From NCBI GenBank assembly GCA_020054205.1, contig JAGVLS010000018.1, positions 186,001-250,000 of the forward strand: a stretch of DNA of 64,000 bases. The letters run 5' to 3'. The DNA comes from Candidatus Obscuribacterales bacterium (GTDB taxonomy: Bacteria > Cyanobacteriota > Vampirovibrionia > Obscuribacterales > Obscuribacteraceae). Positions 5,260-63,631 of the stretch are shown one piece after another; position 1 is the stretch's first letter, and each line of letters opens with the position of its first letter. The notes below the pieces were generated by a model. It worked only from the letters and a program-made list of their open reading frames with translations, was not told where the DNA came from and did not search any database. The translations under genes and the position numbers were made by a program.

Positions 5260-6354
5260 CTATTGGGGTGGGCTTACTTCGCCAGCATAACTGGTAGCCA
5301 TTGCTTGTTTAAAGCTTGATATGGAATCACATAATTTATTGCCAATTAACCAACGGACTTTTACATCAACAGCTACGTGCGTATGATCAAAACACGGTAT
5401 TGCACCAGCTGCGACTGCATCTTGTCCTGGTTCGTAATGTGCTGCAATTATATTGCCTCCAGGAAATTGAGAAGATAAGAATACAGGAATTTTTTTATCC
5501 TCTGTAGCTTTTTTAATAATTGGAATTAAATTGTATTTGCCTTCATTGCAGACATTTCCTTCTCCAAAACATTCTAGAATCAATGCTTTTACATCTTTAC
5601 TTTCAATTAAATGTTCTATTATGCTTGGCTCTAATCCTGGAGAAACAGCAATTGTTACTACACCTTGTCCCCAGTGAGCTGCAAGTGAGTCTAGGCTGTT
5701 GGGAAAATTGTTTGTTTTTGTTCTTAAGCGCTCTTTCCAAAGTTCTGCACCATTAGCATCAATTATGCCAACTGGGCGAAAGGCAGGACTATCCATAGCA
5801 TCAAATCGTCTTTCACTAACTTTTATCGTGCGGCAGCCGCGCAATATTCGATCATAAAAACTTATCAGGACTTCAGAGCAATTAAATTCTATAGCAGCTA
5901 TTAAAGTAGCAAAAAGATTTTCTAAATTAAAGCGAGCATCTCCACCGCTTGTATAAATAGAATTTTGAGCACCAGTTATTACTATCGGTAAATGAGATAA
6001 TTTATTGTCGGGATTTATGCCAGTCAGTGCAAGTGTTAAGGCAGTAGCTGTATGAGGAAGAGTATCGGTGCCGTGTGTGATAGCAATTCCGTCGAATCCT
6101 TCTTGTCGTGCTTTTTCAATTCTCTTTGTCAATTTTATCCAATCTTCGAAATTTACATTTGTTGAGTCTTTCGAAGTAATAAATTCGTAAGTGATTTCAA
6201 TACCATTTTCTTTAAACTTCTTTAGGCTCGACTCACATGAATCAGAAAAATCTTTATTGCTATTAGGACCAAGTAAAACTAATTTGCCATTGCGATCATG
6301 CAATTGCATACCAATAGTGCCGCCATGACAAATAAAAAGAACTTTTCTTTTCAT
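5260..6354 (-). CDS. Asparaginase (asparaginase/glutaminase family)
   Basis: This is a type I/II L-asparaginase fold protein that hydrolyses asparagine to aspartate and ammonia. The first catalytic Thr lies in HGGTIG (T13), and the second catalytic pair is in ITHGTDTLPHTA (T96, D97). There is no signal peptide, so a cytoplasmic enzyme is likely. At 364 residues it is somewhat longer than the usual 325-350. It ends 3 bases from the stop of the convergent protease gene and lies 9 bases downstream of the TPR-PDZ gene on the same strand. Related amidases of other specificity share these motifs. Confidence 0.8.
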   Translation of the reverse strand: MKRKVLFICHGGTIGMQLHDRNGKLVLLGPNSNKDFSDSCESSLKKFKENGIEITYEFITSKDSTNVNFEDWIKLTKRIEKARQEGFDGIAITHGTDTLPHTATALTLALTGINPDNKLSHLPIVITGAQNSIYTSGGDARFNLENLFATLIAAIEFNCSEVLISFYDRILRGCRTIKVSERRFDAMDSPAFRPVGIIDANGAELWKERLRTKTNNFPNSLDSLAAHWGQGVVTIAVSPGLEPSIIEHLIESKDVKALILECFGEGNVCNEGKYNLIPIIKKATEDKKIPVFLSSQFPGGNIIAAHYEPGQDAVAAGAIPCFDHTHVAVDVKVRWLIGNKLCDSISSFKQAMATSYAGEVSPPQ

Positions 6355-9706: not shown

Positions 9707-9783
9707 GAAAAAACATCTTTTAAGTTAACCAAGACGTGCTAAAATTCTTAGTTAGGTTACAGTTGAAAAGCAGGATTTTTTTA

Positions 9784-10008
9784 ATGAAGACAATTCCATT
9801 AAGTGCTGTGATAAATCAGGAAGACGATGTTTATGTATCGCTGTGTACTGAACTGGATATTGCAAGTCAGGGTTCCACAATTGAAGAGTCTTTGTCTAAT
9901 CTTAAAGAAGCTGTGGAAGGTTTCTTTGAAGTTGCAAGTCCAGACGAAATCAAACGACGGCTAAAAAAACCGTCACTTTTTACACATATTGAAGTCACCT
10001 GTGCCTAA
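9784..10008 (+). CDS. hicB: HicB-like antitoxin
   Basis: This 74-residue protein has the HicB partial RNase H-like fold: IPLSAVINQEDDVYVSLCTE, then ASQGSTIEESLSNLKEAVE. I chose ATG 9784 with AGGA about 9 bases upstream; a longer frame from GTG 9736 adds residues atypical of HicB. Its stop overlaps the start of the HicA gene. HicB neutralises HicA and usually represses the operon. The order here is antitoxin first, the reverse of the more common hicA-hicB. There is no obvious C-terminal DNA-binding domain, so autoregulation is uncertain. Confidence 0.8.
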   Translation: MKTIPLSAVINQEDDVYVSLCTELDIASQGSTIEESLSNLKEAVEGFFEVASPDEIKRRLKKPSLFTHIEVTCA

Positions 10009-10222
10009 ACTAGGTATATTTTCGGGTGAGGAAATAATCCGTATCATGGAAAAAGCGGGTTTTGTATCTGCTCGCCAAAAAGGCAGCCACATGATTATGC
10101 AAAAGAAATTAGACGATGGAACAATTACTGTACCGGTTCCGATGCACAAAACTATAAAAATTGGTACACTGCAATCTATTATTCGACAATCAGGTATACC
10201 CAAGGAAACTTTTCTTGTTTAG
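10001..10222 (+). CDS. hicA: HicA-like mRNA interferase toxin
   Basis: The 73-residue product has the HicA dsRBD-like fold, with PKLGIFSGEEIIRIMEKAGF at the start, the GSH motif carrying the catalytic His (QKGSHMIM), and PVPMHKTIKIGTLQSII. HicA cleaves mRNA and tmRNA without ribosomes. I chose GTG 10001, overlapping the hicB stop, because family members begin close to the SGxE motif; an in-frame TTG at 9989 would add four residues. The pair sits at the edge of an 869-base region with gene decay, a typical place for a mobile accessory module. Confidence 0.8.
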   Translation: MPKLGIFSGEEIIRIMEKAGFVSARQKGSHMIMQKKLDDGTITVPVPMHKTIKIGTLQSIIRQSGIPKETFLV

Positions 10223-10296
10223 CATATTTAGAATAATTCAATTGGCAGAGTAGTCATCGTTATCAAAAAATTTCCAACTTTTGATTAGTATTTGGA

Positions 10297-10665
10297 TTAT
10301 CTAAATATAGATTGTATTTCTTGTTCAGTTATTTTGTTGTCTTTGTTTTGGTCAAATGTTTGGAAGCGAGTATCTAAAAAATAAGCAAGAACAGCAGGAT
10401 TTTTTATATCTCTTGTGCCAGGCAAATAATCATATACTTGCTGTAAATGTCACGCTATTATCAACTTCTAGAAGTTGGCTCTCTTTGCTCGTTAATTGAT
10501 TAGAATTTTTGTAAAGTTCAAGTCAACAGCATGGTTTCCCACATAAACAATCTCCATAAACTTGTTATTGGAGCAGAGTGGCAGGTATCTCGACAAGAAT
10601 ATCGGATATCGATACTCGATATTTAAACCAGGTATCTCACTAGCCTGAATAAGTCGGTCTAGCTA
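10297..10665 (-). pseudogene. Decayed gene ending in an EF-hand
   Basis: Reading the minus strand, three stretches in different frames line up as one broken coding sequence. The first is about 10492-10665 (contains IEYRYPIF and KFMEIVYVGNHAVDLNF). The second is about 10450-10522 (NSNQLTSKESQLLEVDNS). The last is 10297-10449 (QQVYDYLPGTRDIKNPAVL), ending in the EF-hand FDQNKDNKITEQEI just before the stop. Two frameshifts separate the pieces. An in-frame TAG near 10665 cuts off more open frame reaching about 10840. The parent family is not recognised beyond the EF-hand. Sequencing error is an alternative to real decay. Confidence 0.45.
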
Positions 10666-10833
10666 AAAATACGAAAATGAGTAAAGCCTGCTTCCCCAAG
10701 AAAAGATAAAAATACGACTTGGTTTACAAAACCATAAAAATATTGTCCCTTCAAGAAAGGTATCTATACCGATAAAATGAATTTCAGACAGGGAATATTC
10801 AATCTTTAAGGTCAGATTATTTGATACAAAAGC

Positions 10834-10863
10834 TTGACTTTACTTTATTCAATTGAGAATATT
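10834..10863 (+). promoter_or_regulatory. Candidate promoter of the aspS leader transcript
   Basis: TTGACT at 10834-10839 is followed after 17-18 bases by GAATAT/AATATT (10857-10863). Transcription would begin near 10870, about 20 bases before the leader ORF. There is no room for a promoter between the terminator hairpin and the aspS start, so transcription must begin upstream of the hairpin. The -10 match is imperfect. Confidence 0.4.
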
Positions 10864-10889
10864 TAAAGTATTAGCAAATAGGTAATTAA

Positions 10890-11036
10890 GTGTTTAAGTT
10901 GTTATTAGTTCAAAAATTATTGAAGACGTCCGAGAAGCCATCAATTATTATTGCTGGTGCAAGCTGTGCTGCAAATAATGCTATTAATGATAATGATTGC
11001 TCAAACTACTTGCGGCAAGCGAAGATTTTTATATAG
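10890..11036 (+). CDS. Putative Asn/Asp-rich leader peptide of aspS
   Basis: This is a 48-codon ORF with a GTG start and a weak AGG seven bases upstream. Codons 29-39 (10974-11006) read N-N-A-I-N-D-N-D-C-S-N: five Asn and two Asp codons in eleven. It ends with TAG 18 bases before a terminator hairpin, and aspS follows directly. The layout matches leader peptides of amino-acid and aminoacyl-tRNA-synthetase attenuators such as pheM in front of pheST in E. coli. Translation is expected to sense charged tRNA-Asn and tRNA-Asp rather than to make a functional protein. No homologue is known to me. Confidence 0.5.
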   Translation: MFKLLLVQKLLKTSEKPSIIIAGASCAANNAINDNDCSNYLRQAKIFI

Positions 11037-11090
11037 ATAAAAAATTCAGTTTATAAGAGCCGCAGGTAATAAGATCTGCGGCTCTTTTGT
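10967..11090 (+). promoter_or_regulatory. Ribosome-mediated transcription attenuator of aspS
   Basis: Three mutually exclusive helices can be drawn. Helix 1:2 pairs 10967-10974 (TGCTGCAA) with 11010-11017 (TTGCGGCA), 8 pairs with one G-U. Helix 2:3 pairs 11007-11016 (TACTTGCGGC) with 11059-11068 (GCCGCAGGTA), 10 pairs with one G-U; this would be the antiterminator. Helix 3:4 is the terminator 11055-11065 / 11076-11086. The Asn/Asp codon run of the leader ORF lies in the loop of 1:2. A ribosome stalled there would block region 1 and leave region 2 free to pair with region 3, so transcription would continue into aspS. Confidence 0.55.
11055..11090 (+). terminator. Intrinsic terminator directly before aspS
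   Basis: AAGAGCCGCAG (11055-11065) and CTGCGGCTCTT (11076-11086) form a perfect 11-bp stem with a 10-base loop, followed by a U-rich tract (TTTTGTT). It ends about 13 bases before the aspS ATG, so it can only act on a transcript that also has to supply aspS mRNA. Confidence 0.8.
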
Positions 11091-11103
11091 TATGAGGTAC
11101 AAA

Positions 11104-12423
11104 ATGGAAATTAAGTATACGCTTACAAAAGAGATTGCTCAGAAGATTGGGGGAAAAGTATGTATGAGAGGGCATATACATGCTCTTAGAAAAATGGGAA
11201 AAATTGCCTTTATTGTTTTAAGGGATAGATCTGGATTAATACAAGTACTTGTAAGAGATAAAGAGCTGCTGACAAAAATTAGTGGGTTAACTTTAGAAAC
11301 AGCTATATCTGTCGTAGGTGTTTTGCAAACGCAGCCTCATAACAATCAAATTGAGCTAGAAGCGCAGGTAATTGAAACTTTGTCATATGTAGCGGATACT
11401 CTGCCCATTGAAATAAACAAGTCTAGTAGAGTTGATGATTTAGCATTGTCAACCATGCTTGATTATCGGACGATAACACATAGAGCAGAAAAAACAAAAG
11501 CCATATTTAAAATTGAAGCGGCAATTTGTCATGCCTTTAGATCATTTCTTAGTGAAAATGAATTTGTTGAAATTCATTCACCCAAAATTGTTTCTACTGG
11601 TACAGAAGGTGGCGCGCAATTATTTGCTGTAAATTATTTTGGGCGTAAGGCATATTTAGCACAGAGTCCACAATTTTATAAACAGATGATGGTAGGAGCA
11701 TTTGAGCGCGTTTTTGAAATAGGACCTGTCTATAGAGCGGAAGAACATGATACAACTAGGCATTTAAATGAATATATAAGCATGGATTTTGAAATGGGCT
11801 TTATTGAAAGCGAGCAAGATTTAATAAATCTACAAACAAAATTATTACAATATATTTTTCAATATTTATCAAAAACATGCTTAGAAGAAATAGCGCTTTA
11901 TGAAGCTATCGTACCTGAGATTACAACAATTCCACAAATTACACATAAAGATGCTATTTTACTTTTAGAAAATAAATATAAGTGGACCAGTAATGAAAAA
12001 AATAAGTTAGGGAATGTAGTTGTAGACTTAGATCCAGATGCTGAAAAACTTTTATCTGAACATTTTTATAAATATGAAAATTCAGAATTTGTCTATATAA
12101 CAAAATACCCTCGAGCCATTAGGCCTTTTTATGCTATGCCTGAAGACGAACTAAGCAAAAGCTTTGATTTGTTGTTTAGGGGCTTAGAAGTAACAACTGG
12201 TGGACAAAGAATTCATAAATATGATGAATTGGTAGATATTATGCGTGAGCGTAATTTAGAAGTGGAAAAATTTACTGATTATTTGCAATGCTTTAAATAT
12301 GGCATGCCACCGCACGGAGGATTGGCAATTGGTTTAGAAAGACTAGCCAAACAACTTTTAAATTTATCGAGTGTAAAACTTGCGTCATTATTTCCGCGCG
12401 ATATTAATCGTCTGACGCCTTAA
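11104..12423 (+). CDS. aspS: Aspartyl-tRNA synthetase, archaeal type, probably non-discriminating
   Basis: This class IIb synthetase has the short architecture of archaeal/eukaryal AspRS: an N-terminal OB-fold anticodon domain (about 1-100), then the catalytic domain with motif 2 (YRAEEHDTTRHLNEY) and motif 3 (GGLAIGLERLAKQLL), without the bacterial insertion domain. Length is 439 residues. ATG 11104 has TGAGG six bases upstream; ATG 11092 lies in the U-tract of the terminator. Counting from this start, residue 26 is His in RGHIHAL, where discriminating archaeal enzymes have Trp. That suggests charging of both tRNA-Asp and tRNA-Asn, with Asn-tRNA then made by GatCAB (not in this window). Its 3' end overlaps the convergent protease gene by 36 bases. 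Confidence 0.85.
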   Translation: MEIKYTLTKEIAQKIGGKVCMRGHIHALRKMGKIAFIVLRDRSGLIQVLVRDKELLTKISGLTLETAISVVGVLQTQPHNNQIELEAQVIETLSYVADTLPIEINKSSRVDDLALSTMLDYRTITHRAEKTKAIFKIEAAICHAFRSFLSENEFVEIHSPKIVSTGTEGGAQLFAVNYFGRKAYLAQSPQFYKQMMVGAFERVFEIGPVYRAEEHDTTRHLNEYISMDFEMGFIESEQDLINLQTKLLQYIFQYLSKTCLEEIALYEAIVPEITTIPQITHKDAILLLENKYKWTSNEKNKLGNVVVDLDPDAEKLLSEHFYKYENSEFVYITKYPRAIRPFYAMPEDELSKSFDLLFRGLEVTTGGQRIHKYDELVDIMRERNLEVEKFTDYLQCFKYGMPPHGGLAIGLERLAKQLLNLSSVKLASLFPRDINRLTP

Positions 12424-62066: not shown

Positions 62067-62807
62067 ATGATGGCTTGGACGATGCAACATAAGGTTGTAG
62101 CGATATCTGTGTATATGCTTTTGGTTACAATAGATGCATTTTTTACAAATAGTTTTTTTGCCAAAGCAGCGACAACAGTAAGTAATACTTATTCTTTAGG
62201 TAAAACAAAGCTTTCTCAAGGCAAGTATGCAGAAGCAATTAAACTTTTAGAACTAGCTGCACAAACACCAGAATTTAAAAATAATTGTGATTGCCATTTA
62301 TGTTTAGGACAAGCATATTGTAGTCAAAAAAATTATGTTAAAGCCAAACAAGAACTGCGTATGGCTATAAGGCTAGGTAAAGGTTCGGCCAATGCTCAAA
62401 AAGCAAATCAAATAATGATTACTAAAATACCGCACAGCATACTGAAACCGAAACTTGGTGAAGGCACTCAAATGATTGCAGCTTTGCTTGGTATTTCAGG
62501 GCTTGATAGAGGTCCTGGTGGTGCTAAACCAAAAGTGTTTGAATTTTATGCAGATTGGTGTCAGCCATGTAAGCTATTGAAGCCTGTTTTAGCTAAAGCA
62601 AAAGAGCAATATGCTGGGCAAATTGAATTTGTTAGTTACAATGTTGATGATGCTAAGAATGAAGAGTTTATCAATCAATATGAAGTAAGCCCAATACCAA
62701 CAATTATTTTTCTTACTTCGGATAATGAAGTTGTTGGTTATTCGATTGGTTTTTCTGGAGAACAAGTAATTGTCAAAGAACTAAAAAAGATTCTTCCTAA
62801 AGTCTAG
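62067..62807 (+). CDS. Secreted TPR-thioredoxin fusion
   Basis: A signal peptide (about 10-36) is followed by a TPR pair (about 40-115; QGKYAEAIKLLELAAQ, CHLCLGQAYCSQKNYVKAK), a linker, and a thioredoxin domain (about 150-246) with WCQPCKLLK as the redox CxxC and the cis-proline in SPIPTIIFL. The CxxC is the CQPC type. The start has a GGGGG element, 17 bases after the hydrolase gene, so the pair may form an operon. It likely reduces disulphides in the periplasm. Confidence 0.8.
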   Translation: MMAWTMQHKVVAISVYMLLVTIDAFFTNSFFAKAATTVSNTYSLGKTKLSQGKYAEAIKLLELAAQTPEFKNNCDCHLCLGQAYCSQKNYVKAKQELRMAIRLGKGSANAQKANQIMITKIPHSILKPKLGEGTQMIAALLGISGLDRGPGGAKPKVFEFYADWCQPCKLLKPVLAKAKEQYAGQIEFVSYNVDDAKNEEFINQYEVSPIPTIIFLTSDNEVVGYSIGFSGEQVIVKELKKILPKV

Positions 62808-62896
62808 TGGCTATCATACTTTTGGGGGATTCACATTCGATCATTACACATGTTAACAATTGATAAAGAGGGTATATAGTTTTTGGAAGTAATTTT

Positions 62897-63631
62897 GTGT
62901 GCGCAGAATCTGATGAATTAATAGATTTAGGTATCATGGATTGGGAAGAAAACAATTCAAATCAAGTAATTAATGTTCTTATTGTTGAAGATCATGAAAT
63001 TACACGTGTTGGCTTAAAGCTTACATTGTCGCAAATGCCTTTGTTAAAAGTGATTGGCGAGGCTGAAGATGGGCAATCTGCGATAAGTCGTGCTTTAGAA
63101 TTAAAGCCAAACGTTATTCTTATGGATATTGGGTTGCCATCAATGGATGGTATTGAAGCAACACTTACAATAAAAACACAAATGCCGGACATGAGAATTG
63201 TAATGTTAACTTCACACGACAACGATCGAGATATTTTTGCAGCATTGGCAGCTGGAGCTGATGGTTATTGTTTAAAAGAGGTTTCGGGGACACAATTATC
63301 TTTAGCAATTAGAACCGTTGCCGATGGTGCAGCTTGGTTAGATCCAGCTATAGCAAGTCGTGTTTTAAAAGCTAGTGCTCAAACAGGACAAATTCATACA
63401 AGTGAAAATTTAATCCCGATAACACAATCGTCATCAATAGGTAGACTTTCGCAAAGAGAAATGGAAGTTTTAGCCTTGGTTGTAGAAGGATTAAGTAATC
63501 AAGAAATTGCCAATAGATTAGGTTTAAGTGTAGAGACAATAAAAACACATATGCGCCACATTATGGAAAAATTGGCAGTATCAGACCGTACTCAAGCTGC
63601 GGTGAAAGCAATGCGTCAGGGACTGGTATAA
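62897..63631 (+). CDS. NarL/FixJ-family response regulator
   Basis: The receiver domain has the phosphorylated D77 (ILMDIGLPSMDG), acidic pair E31/D32, T105 and K128; the C-terminal LuxR-type HTH has LSQREMEVLALVVEGLSNQE and VSDRTQAAVKAM. At 244 residues it is normal, with a short N-terminal extension. The start is GTG with GGAAG 8 bases upstream. No histidine kinase is adjacent in the window, so the signal is unknown. Confidence 0.88.
   Translation: MCAESDELIDLGIMDWEENNSNQVINVLIVEDHEITRVGLKLTLSQMPLLKVIGEAEDGQSAISRALELKPNVILMDIGLPSMDGIEATLTIKTQMPDMRIVMLTSHDNDRDIFAALAAGADGYCLKEVSGTQLSLAIRTVADGAAWLDPAIASRVLKASAQTGQIHTSENLIPITQSSSIGRLSQREMEVLALVVEGLSNQEIANRLGLSVETIKTHMRHIMEKLAVSDRTQAAVKAMRQGLV

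Follow-up and report, generated by a model that had tools for sequence, protein, structure and literature searches.

A conserved Asn/Asp-codon leader probably acts as a ribosome-mediated attenuator of a second aspartyl-tRNA synthetase gene

In the family Obscuribacteraceae (Cyanobacteriota), the gene for a second aspartyl-tRNA synthetase, aspS2, is very likely controlled by a ribosome-mediated transcription attenuator that reads Asn and Asp (together Asx) codons. Judged from its sequence, the leader probably lets the translating ribosome turn aspS2 on when charged tRNA-Asn is short. The window analysed is a stretch of 64,000 nucleotides from Candidatus Obscuribacterales bacterium (assembly GCA_020054205.1, contig JAGVLS010000018.1, positions 186,001 to 250,000), and positions are counted from its first letter. 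An Asn/Asp codon run, a terminator and a competing antiterminator stand before aspS2, their conservation and covariation can be followed among relatives, the gene behind them can be identified, and a bacterial AspRS (AspRS1) and an AsnRS coexist with it in the genome. The parts of the leader are as follows.

10834 to 10863, plus strand: promoter-like site, TTGACT and AATATT with an 18-nt spacer (sequence scan; activity predicted only)
10890 to 11036, plus strand: leader ORF of 48 codons with a GTG start and a TAG stop (sequence; counterpart in 42 of 43 family loci)
10967 to 10974, plus strand: region 1 of the preliminary description, with its partner at 11010-11017 (the pairs exist; shuffle controls not exceeded)
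10974 to 11006, plus strand: putative sensor, codons 29-39, Asn Asn Ala Ile Asn Asp Asn Asp Cys Ser Asn
11007 to 11016, plus strand: region 2, the 5' strand of the antiterminator (0 of 200 shuffles as good; covariation)
11055 to 11068, plus strand: region 3, comprising the terminator 5' arm (11055-11067) and the antiterminator 3' strand (11059-11068)
11074 to 11086, plus strand: region 4, the terminator 3' arm (terminator scan, covariation)
11085 to 11091, plus strand: terminator U-tract, TTTTGTT (sequence)
11094 to 11097, plus strand: likely Shine-Dalgarno sequence of aspS2, GAGG, outside the terminator hairpin (sequence)
11104 to 12423, plus strand: aspS2, archaeal-type, probably non-discriminating aspartyl-tRNA synthetase (profile scores, nearest structure, motifs)

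The preliminary description of this locus had proposed the leader ORF, its Asx codons and three competing helices, and all of them are present where it placed them. Asn or Asp occupies seven codons of the ORF (29, 30, 33, 34, 35, 36 and 39). The terminator helix (3:4, 11055-11065 with 11076-11086) forms 11 of 11 pairs and can be extended to 13, the antiterminator (2:3, 11007-11016 with 11059-11068) forms 10 of 10 with one G-U, and the upstream helix (1:2, 10967-10974 with 11010-11017) forms 8 of 8, also with one G-U. A terminator scan of 10200-11300 returned the 3:4 hairpin as its single hit, shuffles averaging 0.5. When all short ORFs of 12-100 codons on both strands of the window were counted (686 and 718), only this leader ORF had both at least five Asx in ten codons and a strong terminator no more than 90 nt away. 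Folded as a whole, the leader departs only slightly from shuffled sequence (z −1.66; 15 of 200 shuffles do equally well), and a scan of the window with Rfam gave nothing at gathering thresholds, including the T-box (RF00230) and the amino acid leader families. Promoter-like sites in the scan of 10200-11300 are not more numerous than in shuffles; a TTGAC −35 element occurs at the best-scoring site upstream of the Asx run in 39 of 42 family loci, a count made without a shuffle control. aspS2 has an alternative start in the same frame, an ATG at 11092.

Orthologues of aspS2 were found in 44 of the 50 family genomes, and leader counts refer to the upstream DNA of 43 of them, L037 being left out as its contig ends inside the gene. 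A leader ORF with 5 to 10 Asx per ten codons, followed by a terminator, precedes aspS2 in 42 of these 43 loci. The terminator starts 18-41 nt past the leader stop codon, hairpins having been searched for with at least four T in the eight positions behind the stem. The sole locus without the device, L044, is a divergent orthologue (44% identical). An Asx-rich leader ORF is found before none of the six class-level homologues (L045-L050), two of which score above the AsnRS cut-off, and none of four related genes in the window's own genome (asnS, aspS1, asnB and gatB) has an upstream ORF with at least five Asx in ten codons. The leader peptides have little similarity outside the Asx run and a short segment over region 2, and their start codons were picked mechanically so that their lengths are uncertain. 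The family that bears the leader is presumably non-photosynthetic.

The 42 runs together comprise 357 codons, of which 219 encode Asn, 107 Asp (326 Asx) and 31 other residues. Codons of the type AAN or GAN end in C or T in 326 of 328 cases, a proportion biased upward because the borders of the runs were set by Asx density. Lys and Glu are thus avoided, which rules out an A-rich tract alone as the cause of the run. Asn codons outnumber Asp codons in 33 loci, equal them in 5 and are fewer in 4, and the leading Asx codon of the run encodes Asn in 34 loci and Asp in 8. The suggestion in the preliminary description that both codon types are present because the synthetase makes both products is therefore too simple, given that AspRS and AsnRS are also encoded, that Asn dominates and that it usually comes first.

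The two codon types also differ in position. Measured from the A-site, region 2 lies on average 20.8 nt away for the 219 Asn codons and 14.6 nt away for the 107 Asp codons, a difference reached by 0 of 10,000 within-run permutations, likewise when only the 32 distinct patterns are used, although these permutations are not independent because the leaders share ancestry. Less than 13 nt from region 2 lie 40 of the 219 Asn and 46 of the 107 Asp codons. Such an arrangement could constitute a gate with two inputs on an enzyme dedicated to misacylating tRNA, in which a ribosome starved of Asn at the distant Asn codons would leave region 2 free and turn aspS2 on, and a ribosome starved of Asp at the nearer Asp codons would tend to cover region 2 and keep the gene off. 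If this were so, induction of AspRS2 would require a shortage of Asn together with a sufficient supply of Asp, its substrate. We regard the gate as doubtful. Its odds are lowered slightly by L013, in which the single Asn codon of the run lies 7 nt from region 2 and the distal codons are Asp only, and it is further weakened by the 61 Asp codons, out of 107, that are no nearer than 13 nt, by the runs that begin with Asp and by the shared ancestry of the leaders.

Covariation was assessed on a MAFFT alignment of the 42 leaders made without reference to structure. For 3:4, 93.2% of cells are paired with 54 double changes, and for 2:3, 80.5% with 14 double changes; in percentage paired and in covariation score, 0 of 500 shuffles equal either helix. 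Slid registers of both helices are less than 48% paired (2:3 at most 47.8%). The 2:3 helix is weaker on two of five measures: 25 of 500 shuffles reach its count of pairs with changes in both strands and 90 of 500 its count of pair types. Related sequences can surpass such shuffles without structure. The usual 2:3 pairing of CTTGCGGT with ACCGCAAG is swapped in some lineages; L027, for example, has CTGGTGG with CCACCAG. Dinucleotide shuffles of the window's leader never gave as good a 2:3 duplex (0 of 200). Across the family, 33 of 42 loci have no more than 2 of 200 shuffles that equal it and 38 have no more than 10, the four loci in which it is not above shuffles (31-61 of 200) being L012, L019, L020 and L030. 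When region 2 was paired with the region 3 of other loci, its own partner was unmatched in L002, L022, L023, L024, L026, L028 and L043. In L004, L012, L018, L019, L020 and L030, pairing is equal or better with more than half of the other loci, as expected of conserved motifs, and the argument from coevolution is weaker there.

The 1:2 helix fared differently. Its eight pairs exist at the site given in the preliminary description, but they do not exceed chance: the best 1:2 duplex of the window's leader is equalled by 30 of 200 shuffles, and region 2 finds an upstream partner in 28 of 42 leaders compared with 398 of 630 shuffled ones. The helix was accordingly rejected as a conserved part of the device. 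Protector helices of this kind are typical of trp-type attenuators and are not universal. The preliminary description had also looked to aligned leaders of related aspS genes for conserved Asx codons and covarying helices. With the ORF conserved in 42 of 43 loci, 2:3 and 3:4 covarying and constraint visible at the level of codons, its central claim of a ribosome-controlled attenuator before aspS is supported.

We propose the following sequence of events, in which the stalling of the ribosome, the termination and the direction of the response are inferred. Transcription would start near 10870 and a ribosome would translate the leader. With ample Asn-tRNA it would cross the Asn and Asp codons and reach the stop codon near region 2. 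With region 2 occupied or passed, the 3:4 terminator would fold and transcription would stop before aspS2. With scarce Asn-tRNA the ribosome would stall on the first codons of the run, at least 21 nt upstream of region 2. Pairing of region 2 with region 3 would then precede the synthesis of region 4, and transcription would continue into aspS2. The enzyme so produced, archaeal-type and putatively non-discriminating, would load Asp onto tRNA-Asn, and amidation by GatCAB would complete a second route to Asn-tRNA beside AsnRS.

The states of the 42 leaders were modelled, and the reach of the ribosome was measured with an assumed footprint extending 18 nt to the upstream and 13 nt to the downstream side of the A-site. 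With a ribosome at the first Asx codon, at least 14 nt remain before region 2 in all 42 loci, and with one at the first Asn codon region 2 is left free in 41. Before region 4 is made, a ribosome stalled at the first Asx codon gives at least six expected 2:3 pairs in 42 of 42 loci, a figure that holds partly by construction since region 2 was chosen as the best partner. In the same state, region 3 is captured by upstream sequence with a mean of 13.1 expected pairs compared with 8.0 for shuffled segments, and capture by at least eight pairs is seen in 42 of 42 loci against 310 of 630 shuffled ones. The terminator is predicted to form in all 42 loci with a ribosome at the stop codon and in 36 without a ribosome. 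Once region 4 is there, the terminator beats 2:3 at equilibrium in 33 of 42 loci even while the ribosome is stalled; the switch would therefore have to be kinetic, with the order of synthesis deciding, as it does in other attenuators. The ribosome at the stop codon covers at least 4 nt of region 2 in 31 loci. In the window the overlap is 2 nt only, and there either ribosome passage or the 1:2 helix may be what keeps region 2 from region 3.

A covariance model built from the 42 family leaders was used to search 99 genomes with strict filters and 35 candidates scored per genome, a setting in which weak copies may be lost and in which one training sequence, L043, was lost. The 41 strong matches (E below 0.001) are the model's own training sequences before aspS2. 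Five of the six weak matches (E 0.001-0.01) resemble ordinary terminators and one a Phe/Tyr leader. No second convincing copy of the leader was found by the model in the 50 family genomes, and a genome-wide Asx regulon was rejected, strong matches in the 99 genomes lying only before aspS2. A search of 386 genomes of the phylum (E up to 1e-4, 9 candidates per genome; 22 of the 386 listed by family) matched the window and one unrelated, Met-rich leader.

Two leaders of other specificity were seen in the class. In a class-level relative (L126, G073:C7:61500-63200), a leader at about 62762-62900 on the minus strand contains a 23-codon ORF, MNRNTNTYFYFYFFSRACRSCED, with a Phe/Tyr run; the 5' arm of a terminator complements the later part of the ORF and a DAHP synthase gene (PF00793) follows. 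It is likely a Phe/Tyr attenuator. In another family (L237:359-496, G124:C2), an ORF of 29 codons, nine of them Met (MFKPQTMIMQMMMMQGSKSGGHCCVMRMC), has in its later part GGCGGTC, complementary to the terminator arm GACCGCC, and is followed by a 446-aa hypothetical ORF; it is possibly a Met-codon attenuator.

Outside the phylum, a small ORF with at least five Asx in ten codons lies within 450 nt upstream of 3 of 77 aspS2 orthologues (at 76, 254 and 328 nt). None of the three has a strong terminator close behind it: L222 has no terminator-like hairpin behind the ORF, that of L201 is weak with three G-C pairs, and that of L209 lies ~247 nt downstream. When 20 of the 77 loci, picked for spread, were scanned with Rfam, a T-box was found upstream of aspS2 in 14, from Bacillota and Chloroflexota, and in none of the other six, which include Latescibacterota, Armatimonadetes and Planctomycetota. 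For 8 of the 14 T-boxes the specifier was read from the alignments, with T-box anatomy as guide, as AAC in two and GAC in six. This suggests that two unrelated RNA devices, a leader peptide and a T-box, have been recruited to the same decision on aspS2. A second T-box lies directly downstream of aspS2 in Sedimentibacter (L171:2848-3056) and in a Firmicutes MAG (L166:2866-3071), where the next gene thus seems to be under separate tRNA control.

Some bacteria have two routes to Asn-tRNA, one through AsnRS and one through a non-discriminating AspRS (ND-AspRS) with GatCAB. The product of the window gene scores 536 bits with NF003483 (cut-off 353) and 402 bits with TIGR00458 (cut-off 368), both models of aspartate--tRNA(Asn) ligase. 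The closest solved chain is 1n9w/3kfu (383 bits), the non-discriminating, archaeal-type AspRS2 of Thermus thermophilus. Among 18 of the 44 orthologues, which were aligned, a Gly-His motif in the anticodon domain, presumably tied to non-discrimination, is invariant and the class II motifs are intact. The gene therefore probably encodes an archaeal-type, non-discriminating AspRS2, which would be expected to charge tRNA-Asn with Asp. Given this assignment, the switch probably governs tRNA-dependent formation of Asn-tRNA. A housekeeping role was rejected, as the genome also encodes a bacterial AspRS (747 bits) and an AsnRS (642 bits, cut-off 343). AspRS2 was likewise rejected as the only source of Asn, since an asnB-like gene is present (500 bits), as it is over cut-off in 40 of the 52 genomes, the window's own included.

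GatB is found in the window's genome (561 bits), and no GlnRS over cut-off and no GatA match were found there by profile search. GatA exceeds its cut-off in 48 of 52 genomes and the assembly is 93.7% complete, so that its absence may be technical. No tRNA-Asn was found among the tRNAs read in this genome (49 tRNA places, five of 83-90 bases excluded), and the absence of both GatA and tRNA-Asn probably reflects assembly gaps. GlnRS is over cut-off in 22 of 32 family genomes. Of these 22, aspS2 is present in 21 (G008 lacks it), GatA passes its cut-off in 21 (in G016 it is split into two pieces at contig ends) and GatB does so in 17. The five without a GatB match (G001, G005, G013, G022 and G029), all with GatA and GlnRS over cut-off, may represent an assembly gap, a search miss or a real loss. 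Where GlnRS is present, the formation of Gln-tRNA should not depend on GatCAB, in keeping with a role of GatCAB alongside AspRS2. Read by eye from the acceptor stem (ARAGORN places some starts one base off), tRNA-Asn has U1 paired with A72 at all 25 loci read, 23 in the family and 2 at order level; according to passages of PMC4206432, this is the pair recognised by bacterial GatCAB. It is also found in genomes without aspS2, and so permits and does not prove the indirect route.

Several other explanations of the leader were considered. The ORF might encode a small functional protein with the hairpin as its terminator, aspS2 being served by a promoter of its own between 11087 and 11104. The promoter-like site upstream of the ORF and the position of the hairpin, like that of a 3' end, would suit such a gene, yet the peptides are barely alike outside the Asx run and the region-2 segment, and the complementarity of region 2 to the terminator arm exceeds that of shuffles in 38 of 42 loci and shows compensatory changes. 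Only 12 nt separate the U-tract of the window from the ATG, and a scan of the plus strand past 10863 to 11300 predicted no promoter-like site. A small protein is highly improbable on these grounds. Control of translation, in which the hairpin or translation of the leader would alter access of ribosomes to aspS2, is very improbable: the ATG does lie close behind the hairpin, but the likely Shine-Dalgarno sequence is outside it and the family hairpins are followed by the T-rich stretch of a terminator (in part a consequence of the search criterion). The T-boxes at the same place in Bacillota and Chloroflexota raise the question of whether a T-box or another tRNA- or ligand-binding riboswitch controls aspS2, with the ORF incidental. 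We consider this to have almost no likelihood, as the window has no Rfam family at threshold, region 2 pairs upstream no more than in shuffled leaders, and what is conserved is a run of in-frame codons that end in pyrimidines.

A less improbable alternative, which we nevertheless consider unlikely, accepts a ribosome-dependent switch and assigns its main role to Asp-tRNA or the general supply of Asx rather than to the indirect Asn-tRNA route. Asp makes up 107 of the 326 Asx codons and prevails in four loci, AsnB and AsnRS coexist, most of the specifiers read in orthologue T-boxes (6 of 8) are GAC, and GatB is missing from 5 of 22 GlnRS-bearing family genomes. The runs themselves argue for Asn, which is the more frequent residue in 33 of 42 and the first in 34. 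Moreover, a housekeeping AspRS1 is present in the window's genome without such a leader, and the U1-A72 pair occurs in every tRNA-Asn copy read, though also in genomes lacking aspS2. Control of tRNA-dependent Asn-tRNA formation is therefore the reading we prefer.

The trp, his and E. coli pheST leaders are ribosome-mediated attenuators. The aspS2 leader resembles these and the attenuators of hisS and cysS in having a short ORF with codons of the regulated amino acid, a terminator, a competing antiterminator and a signal that would depend on ribosome position, and differs from them in its Asn/Asp codons, in the AspRS2 gene, in its occurrence in presumably non-photosynthetic Cyanobacteriota and in having no supported 1:2 helix. 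Excerpts of PMC2965389 (2010) present the His-leader of hisS/hisZ in bacilli as a leader-peptide system, state that before this Bacillus hisS case none was known outside Proteobacteria and Actinobacteria, ermC excepted, and give precedents for the exchange of T-box and leader peptide on one gene. The available portions of PMC8632094 describe uORFC-8-2 of Rhodobacterales, a Cys-codon attenuator before cysS. The accessible text of a survey of Actinobacteria (PMC1262725) contains none of the terms asparagin, aspartyl, asnS or aspS. Among the matches listed from one open-access library, a scope outside which most subscription papers fall, no Asn/Asp leader-peptide attenuator appeared in a title or in the opening of an abstract. 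The leader is thus a conserved one of apparent attenuator type, on a second AspRS, with an Asn/Asp specificity that we did not find described. It would extend leader-peptide control to a new pair of amino acids and to Cyanobacteriota that are presumably non-photosynthetic.

The transamidation operon of Clostridium acetobutylicum, the subject of Saad 2012 and 2013, reportedly includes an AspRS gene. In the sections available of PMC4206432 and PMC4052509, this ND-AspRS/GatCAB operon is under T-box control, and the title of Saad 2012, as given in the references of PMC4206432, refers to redundancy of genes and pathways for Asn and Asn-tRNA. The pathway and, as far as those sections go, tRNA-Asn as the signal would be common to both systems, whereas the T-box (RF00230) binds uncharged tRNA directly and the likely sensor of the window leader is the translating ribosome. 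Passages of PMC4206432 also state that AspRS2 and GatCAB make Asn on tRNA in Deinococcus and Thermus, that acquisition of an extra AspRS by bacteria is rare, that it is unclear how many bacteria keep both routes to Asn-tRNA, and that the integration of Asn metabolism with protein synthesis still needs to be understood. The window's family resembles Thermus and Deinococcus (1n9w, 3kfu), as portrayed there, in having a second, archaeal-type AspRS beside AsnRS, another AspRS and GatCAB, and is unlike them in that asnB-like genes are also present. We know of no attenuator described for the AspRS2 of Thermus or Deinococcus. An Asn-codon leader before the synthetase of the indirect route only would offer, for one lineage, a testable answer to how the two routes are integrated.

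Two features of the neighbourhood of aspS2 may be recorded. An asparaginase-like gene (5260-6354, minus strand; PF00710, PF17763) lies ~5 kb from aspS2 and scores below the NCBIfam cut-offs for both type I asparaginase and GatD. At 9736-10222 is a pair of small genes, of which the first, without a Pfam match, occupies the HicB position and the second is HicA-like (PF07927).
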